From assembly GCA_007131725.1 (NCBI GenBank), contig SLPZ01000073.1, positions 1-64,000 of the forward strand: DNA of 64,000 bases, in the 5' to 3' direction. The translations under genes and the position numbers were made by a program. The stretch comes from Balneolaceae bacterium (GTDB lineage Bacteria > Bacteroidota > Rhodothermia > Balneolales > Balneolaceae). The notes below the pieces were generated by a model, which ran no database searches, was not told where the DNA came from, and worked only from the letters and a program-made list of their open reading frames with translations. Shown piece by piece: positions 55,501 through 60,722 of the stretch (position 1 is its first letter; the number at the start of each line of letters is the position of its first letter).

Positions 55501-58500
55501 ATGAAATTTGAGGGACATCGCATTTGGATTGCGCTTTTATTAGCCGTTTTGATCGTAAGTGGATATTTTTTCTATACCTTTCGATCAAATCAGGCACAAC
55601 TGCATGACCAGAGTATCCGGAGTCTTAGTATTACCCAATCCAACCTGAAGAATAGTTGGGAGGCCTATAAAATGCGCTGCAGAATACCTCCAGATGTCGG
55701 TGGAATAGAGGAAACAAACATTTCAGAAACTGACAGTTTGAAAAAAGTACTGAACATCTTGCTCAGTTCTATGCCCCCCAGCGATTTTTTCGATATAACC
55801 ATTATTACCGACTCTTCCGGGCAGGTGCTGGTTACCAAACCTGAAGCAATTATTGACAGGATGCCGGTAGGCGAGAACATTCAAACAGAAGAAATAAAAC
55901 TCGGCATTATAGACTCTGAACTAACTATTTCAGGTGACAATTACCAAATATTCCAGGTGCCCATACACTTGCAATGGGACCAACAAAATTGCCTCTGGAG
56001 ATCTGAAAACCAAGATTCAGAAAATGCAAACCAGGACATAGAATCTGAAAACCTGAATTCGGAAACTGAAAATCAGAACTCAGAACCTGATAACCTAAAA
56101 TCTGAATCTGAAAAAATCATTCTTTACGGTGCCCTTAGTCAGGAAAATTTTAACCAGGTTCGCTGGCGTATTCCGTTTATAGCCATTTATTTTCTGCTAA
56201 GCCTCGTAATTTTAATTATTGCCTCTTACCCTGTAATTCGAATTTTGGGAATGGGACGAGGCGATAGAATGACAGGTTCACAGGTATATCAGACAGGGCT
56301 CTCCCTTATTCTCCTTTCGCTATTTATAGGATTTTCTATCTCTTACTTTGCCAGCAGGCATGAAATCAAAAATAATCAGAGTGATTATGTGCAGAGCCTC
56401 ATTAATAATGTTGAGAAAATGCAGAAAGCTCAACTTTCAAAGTACATAATGTTATTGGATTTATTCATCAAAGTAGGAGGTGAACCTGTAAATAAATCTA
56501 ATATACAATATAATGAAACGATTGTAAGTGATATTGAGGGAAATATCCAACACTTGTGGCTTAGTTCAGATAAAAAAGCGATTGAAGATACTTTAATAAA
56601 TGATTTACCTGATTTAGCCACTCGGCATTATATAAAACGAGCTGTTGATGATAATTTTTATCATGGATCTCATTACTCATATAATCGGGGAAAATTCGAA
56701 AATGTAATCAGCAAGAAAAAGGTTTATTCAAACGAAAGAGACCACTCATATGAATTGATTCATGCAATAACTTTCAACAACGAAATTTATGATGCAGTAG
56801 ATACCTTATATACGAATCCAATTGGCCTGAAATATCTCATCATCAATGAAATCGGCGAGGTATATTATCGGCCGCCTTCGGTGAATACGGCTATTTTTAA
56901 CCTGAGAGAGGCAATACATCCTCGTCAATGGGATGAGGTTCTGGTATTGATGCAGAATAACGATTCTACGGAAACACCATTGCAAATTAATATCTATTTT
57001 GAAGGCCAGCGTTTTAATGCCTTTCTGCAAAAAATGTCTACAGAACCACTCAATCTGAAAGAATCCTCCTGGATTCTCGTGTTCGACGATCCCAATCTGC
57101 TGGCATTTCGCAGTTACTCGGCATTTATGTATTCGGCTGTCGGTTATTTATTCCTGCTGATTATTTTCCTTGCCATTGGCCTGATATCGTATGCGATCAG
57201 GCCGGAGGTCTATTATCTCTCATTCCGCAGGTTTAATCAATATTTTTTCAGGCCGTCTTTTAAGAAGCGCAAAGAGAATGTAATCCTATGTTTGATCATA
57301 TCTACGCATATCCTCTTTTTTATCATCATTTTAAATTGTATAGATATTCATCACATTTGGCTGCTTTTACTTCTTTTTGGGTTAACCGTTCCATTTATCA
57401 TACTATCGCGGCACCTCCTGCTGTCTGATTTTCTTCAAAAACTAACAACAGCATCATCCTGGAAATTTCCACTGTCGGTATTCGCTGTTATTCTGCTGAT
57501 CCTTTATTTCCTTTATCACTTGCCGGTTATCGAATTTCACTACTTATTGATTTTATTATTTCTGTTAGGAATTCAAGCCGGATGGATAATATTTATCATA
57601 TGGGCATTCAATAACTATCCGTTTCAGATTCAAAAAAAATTAAAAAAAATACTCTGGCTCCGTGGCATATCAAACTTTATAAAGGCGTTTGTTCGAAACC
57701 CGAATCAAATGTTTTCTTTTACATTTGCAATTTGGGCGCTGCTGATCGGAATGATTGCGGGTTATGCCATTCATCACTCCGCATTCCATTATGAAGACAA
57801 ACTCTGGGAGCTTGCAGTTGAACACAAGACCGGAGAACCACACCTTCACGAAGACAATAAAAACCATGTGGAACATTCTTCCAGAAGTACCAATCATGAT
57901 CACAACGGCCATTTTCATACGGCAAGTTTAAATCCCTTTTTAAATCACTTTGAGTATTGGCGAAGGCAATGGCTCTTTAATTATACGGGTATAGATTATC
58001 CGGTCATCAACCGTTATATCTATGCCGGAAGATCCCAAATTATGGATGCCTTTGATCACGATCATACTGAAGAAAATGATCATTCTCACCAAGTTCACCA
58101 TTCAAAAGAACCACTAACTTTATTTCTGATCGTTCTTTCATTTCTTGCTGGTTTTATGCTGCTCTATTATCTCGTAAAAATCCTCTCAAAACGCATTTTC
58201 CTGACTGAATACTGGAAATTTTTGCCCGATCCGGCACCTGCTCCAAAAATCAAAAACTATACCTATATACTGACCCCTGATCCCGAAAATGCGCTGAGGG
58301 AACTCCAATCCGGGTTTTTAAAGAATAAAAAATACAAAATACTCAATCTCGCCGGACGGTCGGAACGGGAAAAATTGCGACGGACTGAAGCATCCGGCAG
58401 TATTCCATTTGGCATCCTGTTGAAAGACACCGACGGAATTGCATTACTGAATGCAGACCGTGCACTCCGCTCTTCAGATGACATCGAAAATCTCACAGAT

Positions 58501-59310
58501 CTTATTACAATCTTCAAACAAAAGGAAAAATTTGTTCTGATGACCGGATCAAAAAGCATGAAAGACCTGCAGGAATCCGTGCTTTCCGACAAGGATCCCG
58601 AGCGGGACCATGCACTGCTGAACTGGATGGATGTAACAGGATCGTTTTTTTCAAGCCTCATACCCGTCGGTTACGGGCTTAAACCACCTGAGCCCGGCAA
58701 AGAATCATCCGGCAACAAATATGTCGAAAAGCTGAGAAGAGAAATTTTGTACGGCCCTCACACAAAAGCACTTTCCTATCTTGTAAAACTCGCTGATAAT
58801 GAAGCAAAATCCGGAAAATTTGGCAAAAAAGAGTACCAGAGATGCATCCTGAATATTCAAAGGCACAACAAATCGTATTATCAGAATTTATGGGATCAGC
58901 TCACATTCCGTGAAAAACAGATGGTGAATAACTATGCAAATGAAGGATTTGTAAACTACTCCAATATCGGTGTGGTAACAGAATTACTCCAAAAGGGCAT
59001 TTTCAGATATGACGACCGGCACGAAGACATCAGGCTTTTTAACATAAGCTTCTGCAATTTTGCAACTCAGGCCGTAACCGGTCAGCTTGCCAAAGAATTT
59101 AAAAAAGATAAAAAACTGCACGGAAATGTAAGCCATTTAAGAAATGCTATTCTTACAATTTTTTTCCTTACCATTCTCGGTATTGCCATTATCAGGCCAG
59201 AACTACCCCAGCAATATATTGGTGCCATCAGCGGCGGTCTTGCCCTCATCAGCTCTCTTGCATCGGTTGCCGGTAAACTCCCTTGGAACATTCCCATTCT
59301 CGAAAAGTAA
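55501..59310 (+). CDS. Large multi-pass sensor-like membrane protein with His-rich outer loops
   Basis: A 1269-residue protein I do not recognise as a named family. Predicted helices are at 8-26, 224-247, 263-283, 541-566, 593-613, 617-640, 656-674, 680-703, 738-757, 872-893, 1214-1232 and 1238-1257. The topology puts 27-223 and 284-540 outside as two Cache-like domains. It also puts 758-871 outside, with two His-rich stretches (756-806, 851-867) suited to binding Zn, Ni or Cu. Residues 167-205 are a Ser/Glu/Asn low-complexity loop. The cytoplasmic part 894-1213 includes LTFREKQMVNNYANEGFVNYSN near 1134, resembling a winged-helix region in STAND-NTPase membrane proteins; no P-loop is present. 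GGAG lies upstream of the ATG. Confidence 0.75.
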   Translation: MKFEGHRIWIALLLAVLIVSGYFFYTFRSNQAQLHDQSIRSLSITQSNLKNSWEAYKMRCRIPPDVGGIEETNISETDSLKKVLNILLSSMPPSDFFDITIITDSSGQVLVTKPEAIIDRMPVGENIQTEEIKLGIIDSELTISGDNYQIFQVPIHLQWDQQNCLWRSENQDSENANQDIESENLNSETENQNSEPDNLKSESEKIILYGALSQENFNQVRWRIPFIAIYFLLSLVILIIASYPVIRILGMGRGDRMTGSQVYQTGLSLILLSLFIGFSISYFASRHEIKNNQSDYVQSLINNVEKMQKAQLSKYIMLLDLFIKVGGEPVNKSNIQYNETIVSDIEGNIQHLWLSSDKKAIEDTLINDLPDLATRHYIKRAVDDNFYHGSHYSYNRGKFENVISKKKVYSNERDHSYELIHAITFNNEIYDAVDTLYTNPIGLKYLIINEIGEVYYRPPSVNTAIFNLREAIHPRQWDEVLVLMQNNDSTETPLQINIYFEGQRFNAFLQKMSTEPLNLKESSWILVFDDPNLLAFRSYSAFMYSAVGYLFLLIIFLAIGLISYAIRPEVYYLSFRRFNQYFFRPSFKKRKENVILCLIISTHILFFIIILNCIDIHHIWLLLLLFGLTVPFIILSRHLLLSDFLQKLTTASSWKFPLSVFAVILLILYFLYHLPVIEFHYLLILLFLLGIQAGWIIFIIWAFNNYPFQIQKKLKKILWLRGISNFIKAFVRNPNQMFSFTFAIWALLIGMIAGYAIHHSAFHYEDKLWELAVEHKTGEPHLHEDNKNHVEHSSRSTNHDHNGHFHTASLNPFLNHFEYWRRQWLFNYTGIDYPVINRYIYAGRSQIMDAFDHDHTEENDHSHQVHHSKEPLTLFLIVLSFLAGFMLLYYLVKILSKRIFLTEYWKFLPDPAPAPKIKNYTYILTPDPENALRELQSGFLKNKKYKILNLAGRSEREKLRRTEASGSIPFGILLKDTDGIALLNADRALRSSDDIENLTDLITIFKQKEKFVLMTGSKSMKDLQESVLSDKDPERDHALLNWMDVTGSFFSSLIPVGYGLKPPEPGKESSGNKYVEKLRREILYGPHTKALSYLVKLADNEAKSGKFGKKEYQRCILNIQRHNKSYYQNLWDQLTFREKQMVNNYANEGFVNYSNIGVVTELLQKGIFRYDDRHEDIRLFNISFCNFATQAVTGQLAKEFKKDKKLHGNVSHLRNAILTIFFLTILGIAIIRPELPQQYIGAISGGLALISSLASVAGKLPWNIPILEK

Positions 59311-59429: not shown

Positions 59430-60722
59430 ATGGACAAAGTTAAAGCACTCATCAGGAGCAGCCCTATCGTAATTGCCCTGATTTACATTGTTGTGGGTTT
59501 TCTTTGGATACAGTTCTCGGATCAGTGGGTGCTTGCCATGTTTGATGATCCGGAATCCATTACACGTGTGCAATCACTAAAAGGATGGTTTTTTGTGGCA
59601 GCCAGCGGCTTCATCATTTTTCTGCTGGTAAGTCAAAACAACAGAATGCTCGGAAATGTGATACGCAGCCTCGACCGCACCAATAAAAAATTTGAGTCAA
59701 CTATTGAAAATGCCCCTGTTGGAATTGCTCATCACAAAATCAATGAAAAGTGGCTCGAAGTAAATCAATCGTTTTGTAATCTGTTTGGATATGAACGAGA
59801 TGAACTCCTGAAACTCGGTTTTGATGATATTGTCCATCCCGACGATCTTGAGAAATGCCGTGAATTGGATAAAAAACTGGTTTCAGGAAAAATTCAATAT
59901 TACGAATTTGAAATAAAGTATATCCGAAAGGATGGAAGTATATTTCCGGGTTTTCTCAGAAAAGCCTTCGTAAATGACAATAATGGAAGCTCGCCGTATA
60001 TCATCGCAATTCTTGAAGATATTTCAAGCCAAAAAAATCACGCAAAGCAAATTCGCAAATCACTCCGCGATAAGGAAATACTATTGTCCGAAGTTCATCA
60101 CCGGGTAAAAAACAACCTGGCTTTAATCTCAGCCCTGTTGAATCTCCAGGATATGCATTTTGAAAATAAAGAGCTGAATTCAATTCTGTCTGAAAACAAA
60201 ATCCGAATCAAATGCCTTGCCTTGATTCATGAAACTTTTTCTCAAAATGAAAACTCTGCCGATATTAATTTTCGGAAATTTTTAAATGAGCTGTCAGATT
60301 ATTTACTATCAGAACTGGCCGCGAGCAAAGAAAAAGTAACCCTCAAAAAAAATATTCAACCACTCAACCTCAATATAAATATCGCCATTCCTGTCAGTTT
60401 GATATATACCGAACTGATGATTAAAAACCTTTCTGATACTAAGCTAAAGGGTAATACAGAAATTTCTATTTCGGCAGTAGAAGAAAATGAAATTATTTCG
60501 CTTGTGTTGAAGATACCCGTAAATCAAAACTTTGAAGATTCTCAGATTCTGGACCCAGAAAATCTAAGCTCTATAATTATCAACACACTGGCAGCCCAAA
60601 TTGAAGGCAGTTTCAAGGCTAAAAGTGTAAACAGCATCCTTTCTTATTCACTCACATTTTCAAAGAAAGAACTTCGGGGAGGAGCAAGCCATCTTACTAA
60701 TCAGGATATTTTTACGATGTGA
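59430..60722 (+). CDS. PAS histidine kinase-like protein (HisKA_2) with a degenerate ATPase domain
   Basis: A 430-residue membrane protein. There are two helices (12-30, 52-68), then a PAS domain (88-203, FESTIENAPVGIAHHKINEKW). Next is an HWE/HisKA_2 phospho-acceptor region with His223/His224 in LLSEVHHRVKNNLALISALL. The C-terminal part (about 316-412) lines up with HATPase_c, but the N-box reads YTELMIKNLSDTKL in place of NELVSNALKHAF-type, and there is no DxGxG box. It is unlikely to bind ATP or autophosphorylate. It may be a phosphotransfer or signal-receiving protein; this is inference. It follows the 1269-residue gene by 119 bp. Confidence 0.8.
   Translation: MDKVKALIRSSPIVIALIYIVVGFLWIQFSDQWVLAMFDDPESITRVQSLKGWFFVAASGFIIFLLVSQNNRMLGNVIRSLDRTNKKFESTIENAPVGIAHHKINEKWLEVNQSFCNLFGYERDELLKLGFDDIVHPDDLEKCRELDKKLVSGKIQYYEFEIKYIRKDGSIFPGFLRKAFVNDNNGSSPYIIAILEDISSQKNHAKQIRKSLRDKEILLSEVHHRVKNNLALISALLNLQDMHFENKELNSILSENKIRIKCLALIHETFSQNENSADINFRKFLNELSDYLLSELAASKEKVTLKKNIQPLNLNINIAIPVSLIYTELMIKNLSDTKLKGNTEISISAVEENEIISLVLKIPVNQNFEDSQILDPENLSSIIINTLAAQIEGSFKAKSVNSILSYSLTFSKKELRGGASHLTNQDIFTM

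Follow-up and report, generated by a model that had tools for sequence, protein, structure and literature searches.

The window analysed here, a stretch of 64,000 nucleotides from a Balneolaceae bacterium, contains an Mrp antiporter operon followed by a gene for a large membrane receptor and then by genes for a PAS-HisKA_2 kinase and a TauE-type exporter. The receptor gene occupies positions 55501-59310 on the plus strand and comprises 1269 codons in a single intact reading frame; because this frame is open and its full-length homologues (1187-1551 aa) are uninterrupted by internal stops, we regard it as a real gene. Hydropathy analysis identified about 12 membrane segments in the 1269-aa protein, at approximately residues 8-24, 228-245, 268-285, 547-562, two in 600-633, two in 657-696, 742-755, 877-890, 1217-1232 and 1243-1256. 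This topology places residues 25-226 (sensor 1), 286-540 (sensor 2) and 756-876 outside the cytoplasm, and both termini together with residues 896-1213 inside. A preliminary description, made from the sequence alone, had proposed a receptor with two extracytoplasmic domains and about 12 helices; hydropathy confirmed these counts, and the receptor architecture is supported. The features of the gene are as follows.

55501-59310, plus strand: whole gene, membrane receptor of 1269 aa (open reading frame, full-length homologues)
55522-55572, plus strand: membrane helix 1, residues ~8-24 (hydropathy)
55573-56178, plus strand: extracytoplasmic sensor domain 1, residues 25-226 (alignment, hydropathy; AF2 unreliable here)
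56179-56355, plus strand: membrane helices 2-3, residues 227-285 (hydropathy; conserved in the alignment)
56356-57120, plus strand: extracytoplasmic sensor domain 2, dCache/PAS-like, residues 286-540 (dCache_1 in relatives, Foldseek on a low-confidence model)
57121-57765, plus strand: membrane helices 4-9, residues 541-755 (hydropathy)
57766-58128, plus strand: His-rich extracytoplasmic domain, residues 756-876 (alignment, hydropathy)
58129-58185, plus strand: membrane helix 10, residues 877-895 (hydropathy)
58213-58686, plus strand: pseudo-NTPase, predicted P-loop/AAA+ fold without a P-loop, residues 905-1062 (AF2, Foldseek, dN/dS)
58273-58296, plus strand: erased P-loop position, TPDPENAL, residues 925-932 (alignment, motif scan)
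58432-58467, plus strand: strand at the Walker B position, DGIALLNADRAL, residues 978-989 (alignment)
58846-59076, plus strand: winged-helix-like block, residues 1116-1192 (dN/dS, retention across the family)
59143-59274, plus strand: C-terminal membrane hairpin, residues 1215-1258 (hydropathy, alignment)

Sensor 1 also includes a Glu/Asn/Ser low-complexity stretch (56002-56115), which reaches its greatest length in the window protein; relatives have a shorter version or none.

The window protein had no significant match to Pfam, NCBIfam or PADLOC models, none of which covers its relatives, and a sequence search of the PDB returned nothing useful. It belongs to a Bacteroidota family without a name, for which we assembled 18 full-length members (1187-1551 aa) and one shortened member of 1001 aa on a Persicobacter replicon. 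The closest orthologues are all full-length and uninterrupted: two come from genomes in the same genus, at 53-55% identity, and a third from the same family, at 40%; two orthologues derive from Balneolaceae MAGs. A profile search with the C-terminal region detected distant relatives in another Bacteroidota family, coded f23, and the set was enlarged by searches from these relatives and from a combined profile; some of the genomes are fragmentary MAGs. In the resulting tree, a long branch separates the four-member window clade from both the f23 clade and a second clade of Balneolaceae type, and the architecture is common to the 18 full-length members. No homologue of known, unrelated function was encountered among the relatives found. 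The window protein had no match among viral contigs, phages or plasmids, and in the collections covered it is thus not cargo of a phage or plasmid. Two orthologues (L020 9117-12866 and L044 1073-4858) have a mosaic structure, with 94-95% identity and dS of 0.14-0.42 in sensor 1 and helices 2-3, and 63-90% identity and dS mostly near or above 1 in the rest of the gene, a pattern which points to recombination. The start of the shortened Persicobacter receptor is overlapped for 17 bp by a gene of 303 aa (L097 6541-7452) without a Pfam match.

Four relatives had dCache_1 matches over the sensor 2 region, at E-values of 1.5e-10 to 7e-7 and below the 45-bit gathering score. The window protein has no Pfam dCache match itself, yet it aligns over this region of its relatives, and Foldseek searches with its low-confidence sensor 2 model retrieved dCACHE, CHASE4 and PAS domains. 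The second sensor is hence identified as an extracytoplasmic dCache domain. The AF2 models rest on three sequences and are poor overall, with mean pLDDT of 46.6 and 38.5 and Foldseek E-values no better than 2e-3; that of residues 1-561 was too poor to be usable for sensor domain 1.

The third outer domain is rich in His, with 12 of these residues falling within 50 positions. This clustering was matched by none of 5000 shuffles, indicating that it is not due to chance, and is the highest among the 25 window ORFs tested (the next ORF reaches 8). The preliminary description had recognized two His-rich outer loops (57766-57918 and 58051-58101); these stretches are indeed His-rich and outer, but they form the two ends of one domain of ~120 residues between the ninth and tenth helices rather than separate loops. 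Six His residues of the domain (H758, H759, H763, H853, H855 and H867) are invariant in the four window-clade orthologues, so that a His core is kept in the three near relatives as well as in the window protein, and the long tracts between these core residues are of variable length. In the second Balneolaceae-type clade (L042, L074) the equivalent outer domain carries His-rich stretches of its own, and the alignment showed no such tract in the f23 relatives. A metal site in this domain is plausible. The protein might even be a metal-responsive receptor, in which the His-rich domain binds Zn, Cu or Ni as the main input and the Cache domains tune the response. The non-random clustering, the invariant residues and the recurrence of His-rich stretches in the longer Balneolaceae paralogues would all suit such a receptor, but the tract differs greatly in length among orthologues, is nearly lost from the copy in genome G046 and is missing from the f23 relatives. 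Moreover, the adjoining genes (Mrp antiporter, PAS kinase and TauE-type exporter) are not metal genes and the sole family hint, to arsenic_eff, lies below the cut-off (E 0.038). We therefore view metal as the main input as possible but rather unlikely.

In the window and in genomes G019 and G016 the receptor gene comes immediately after the Mrp operon, and the PAS kinase follows it in the window and in G019. In the close relative G007, where the three large Mrp subunits share 93-96% identity with those of the window, the same flanks (Mrp operon, kinase and TauE gene) are separated by only ~700 bp and the receptor is absent. No convincing gene remnant was detected at this empty site, and no direct repeats of 11 bases flank the receptor gene. 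Given that G019 and G016 carry the gene at this position too, G007 more likely lost it than the window gained it; the occurrence of these flanks without the receptor in a close relative indicates that it is an accessory gene. An association with its neighbours, whereby the receptor controls or works with the Mrp Na+/H+ antiporter or the PAS kinase in alkaline pH or sodium homeostasis, would account for the shared position in the window, G019 and G016 and for the kinase being next in two of these. This association is quite unlikely, however, because G007 retains the Mrp operon, kinase and TauE gene without the receptor, the G046 orthologue is located between LonB-like and RsgA-like genes, and relatives elsewhere have other neighbours.

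Other features of these neighbourhoods were also observed. The PAS-HisKA_2 kinase (59430-60722) is 56% identical to its counterpart in G007 (L085 9373-10662), with flanking genes at 81-96%, and looks unusually fast-evolving or replaced. A pair of genes for a Bor-like lipoprotein and an FAD/ALO-type oxidase (L020 12925-14867, L076 13959-15830, L095 2469-4408) adjoins the receptor in G019 and G016 and is close to it in G673, an f23 genome; in G017 it lies apart from the receptor. This pair is less convincing as an obligatory partner, given that G020 (L094) and G165 have the oxidase but no receptor and that in G017 the oxidase is on a different contig. Next to the ALO gene, and also in one of the receptor-patatin loci, there is a recurrent Peptidase_M19-like gene (L095 4478-6064, L094 10262-11887, L031 1979-3553), whose copies share ~20% identity between lineages.

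Structure prediction of the cytoplasmic region pointed to a STAND-like fold of the P-loop/AAA+ type with a winged-helix-like block behind it. Residues 905-1062 were modelled as an alternating strand-helix fold with pLDDT of ~70-80 in the core, and the top PDB matches in Foldseek were mostly AAA+/P-loop proteins (DnaA, DnaI, Hda, IstB and clamp loaders), at probabilities of up to 1.0 and E-values of only ~0.004-0.05; these data are supportive, but not proof, of a P-loop NTPase (ASCE) fold. The conserved helical block after this region stands in the place of the STAND winged helix (pLDDT ~40-70, no PDB sequence match) and is retained by every one of the 18 members as well as by the shortened Persicobacter relative. 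Comparison of clade profiles gave a match of 97.7% probability extending from an RW-like box through the winged helix and C-terminal part. This match stops short of the P-loop, and so the correspondence at the P-loop rests on the multiple alignment, position and predicted fold. The nSTAND1 family (PF20703) matched two relatives weakly (E 0.0018 and 0.036; best score 18.4 bits, cut-off 27.1) and the window protein not at all. The resemblance to the tail of STAND proteins noted in the preliminary description thus finds support in the profile match to relatives and the weak nSTAND1 matches, but the region is not merely a tail, as residues ~905-1062 occupy the place of the NTPase core itself.

The absence of a P-loop, noted in the preliminary description, was borne out by a motif scan, which detected no canonical Walker A motif, (G/A)xxxxGK[ST], in the window protein. 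None of the family members has this motif at the NTPase position (chance matches elsewhere in three proteins are not counted), and full-length homologues with an intact, canonical P-loop were sought but not found in ~1970 genome searches, in which many genomes were searched more than once; the best loop was GxPGxGKL. Degeneration of the loop is graded across the family. Ten f23 members have GxPGxGK[L/M] (GLPGSNKL in one of the ten), with the Walker Thr/Ser replaced by Leu or Met, and f23 members with such a remnant usually have Asn at the Walker B position. In the window clade the loop is erased, with TPDPENAL where distant relatives have GSPGSGKL, and in L018 and the Persicobacter relative the whole NTPase is missing and the winged helix and C-terminal membrane hairpin are kept. 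Because it fails the Walker A test, we do not class the window protein as a STAND NTPase.

Retention of the winged-helix-like block, the most conserved part of the protein, in lineages that have lost the NTPase could alternatively signify a membrane-anchored transcription regulator of the ToxR/CadC type, which binds DNA through its winged helix without leaving the membrane. In STAND proteins, however, the winged helix is an intramolecular switch and not a DNA binder. In the window protein, moreover, membrane helices hold it on either side, and searches gave no match to a regulator, making this alternative distinctly improbable.

Comparison of G019 with G016 yielded dN/dS values of ~0.16 for the pseudo-NTPase and 0.04 for the winged helix, which are similar to or below those of the other domains and identify the winged-helix-like block as the most constrained part of the protein. 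Purifying selection on a domain without its loop indicates a kept pseudo-NTPase and not a decaying relic. The suggestion in the preliminary description of a relic of a larger ATPase thus holds for descent, given the relatives with P-loop remnants, but not for decay. An evolutionary relic, in which a STAND ATPase receptor has lost its ATPase function and is now drifting, would explain the erased P-loop of the window clade, deletion of the domain in two other lineages, the patchy presence of the gene and its exact absence from a close relative, but is already disfavoured, and very unlikely, in view of these dN/dS values and of an open frame conserved in four of four members of the window clade.

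A phospholipase gene was located directly beside the receptor gene in 6 of the 18 members (patatin in four, Tle1-like in two), on the same strand and within ~55 bp or overlapping. One patatin occurs in L031 and L032, a different one in L017 and L075, and the Tle1-like enzyme in L030 and L042; in the family tree, the receptors paired with these lipase types fall on different branches. The catalytic Ser motifs are GTSTG and GFSRG, with a variant, ANSGG, in L017 and L075. As background, the 17 genomes contain 53 lipase genes (47 patatin and 6 Tle1-like places), which corresponds to a chance of an adjacent lipase of ~0.16% per gene at ~4000 genes per genome, or ~0.03 cases expected in 18, and hence the pairing is real for the family, as judged by neighbourhood only. 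When each patatin type was counted once, four events remained, with a probability near 1e-8 by hand calculation. The patatins adjoining f23 receptors hit phospholipase effector models in PADLOC (best E 1e-24 to 9e-48), and these neighbours alone matched the defence-system models, the receptor being unmatched. No lipase lies beside the window copy or its three nearest relatives. Patatin and Tle1 loci also share a conserved gene for an uncharacterized membrane protein of ~400 aa, a few genes upstream of the receptor (L017 1328-2572, L030 4159-5343, L075 3863-5107).

The nearest described idea is that of the iSTAND proteins of vWA-MoxR ternary conflict systems, in which a catalytically inactive STAND domain acts as a signalling module; these systems are concentrated partly in Bacteroidetes and some act at the membrane (Kaur et al. 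2020, PMC7159879). The window family similarly appears to keep an inactive STAND-type domain for signalling, but in a multi-pass receptor with Cache sensors and with phospholipases as the neighbours in relatives. Neither a vWA nor a MoxR gene is found beside the window gene, whose neighbours encode Mrp subunits, the PAS-HisKA_2 kinase and TauE, and in the absence of an adjoining vWA-MoxR pair we do not class it as an iSTAND ternary system. STAND NTPases (nSTAND1, PF20703; Avs/NLR-like immune sensors) share the order of a P-loop-type fold and a winged-helix-like block, whereas the window family is without a functional Walker A motif or a repeat-type sensor arm and is fixed in the membrane with extracytoplasmic sensors. 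Receptors with dCache domains, such as chemoreceptors and sensor kinases, likewise have this extracytoplasmic domain flanked by membrane helices, but their output is a methyl-accepting or kinase domain instead of a pseudo-STAND/winged-helix module. The PADLOC matches of the f23 patatins recall the CapV/patatin effectors of CBASS and other defence systems; here, however, the partner gene is the receptor, the window copy has no such neighbour, and no cyclic-nucleotide synthase was seen among the neighbours read.

The reading we favour, with somewhat better than even confidence, is that of an ATP-independent, multi-pass envelope receptor of the inner membrane which signals through a pseudo-STAND/winged-helix module. 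The two sensor domains (the second dCache-like) and the third, His-rich domain face outwards, and a P-loop-fold domain that has lost the normal means of using ATP lies inside with the winged-helix-like block, tethered at both ends by membrane helices. An envelope signal, either a ligand or a metal, would change the membrane bundle and thereby expose or regroup the pseudo-NTPase/winged-helix block, which may then, through contact and not ATP hydrolysis, recruit or release a partner in the cytoplasm. The partner in relatives is most likely the adjacent patatin or Tle1-like phospholipase. Lipid hydrolysis is probably the output where a lipase adjoins the receptor, and would constitute a controlled attack on membrane lipid as a stress or conflict response; in the window species, the partner may be encoded elsewhere. 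We tentatively extend this reading to a new envelope-triggered conflict or defence system in Bacteroidota, a doubtful but possible case in which a Cache-sensing pseudo-STAND receptor would unleash the adjacent phospholipase on the cell's own membrane without ATP turnover, the lipase partners being interchangeable and that of the window unlinked or replaced.

We found no earlier description of a multi-pass receptor that has extracytoplasmic Cache sensors and whose ATPase is graded from near-intact to erased to deleted while the winged helix is kept. The pairing with phospholipases suggests that these proteins form a family, so far without a name, of receptors for envelope alarm. As the pairing recurs with distinct phospholipases (two patatin types and one Tle1-like type), it provides a testable effector, and the family allows one to ask directly what a STAND module does without ATP.
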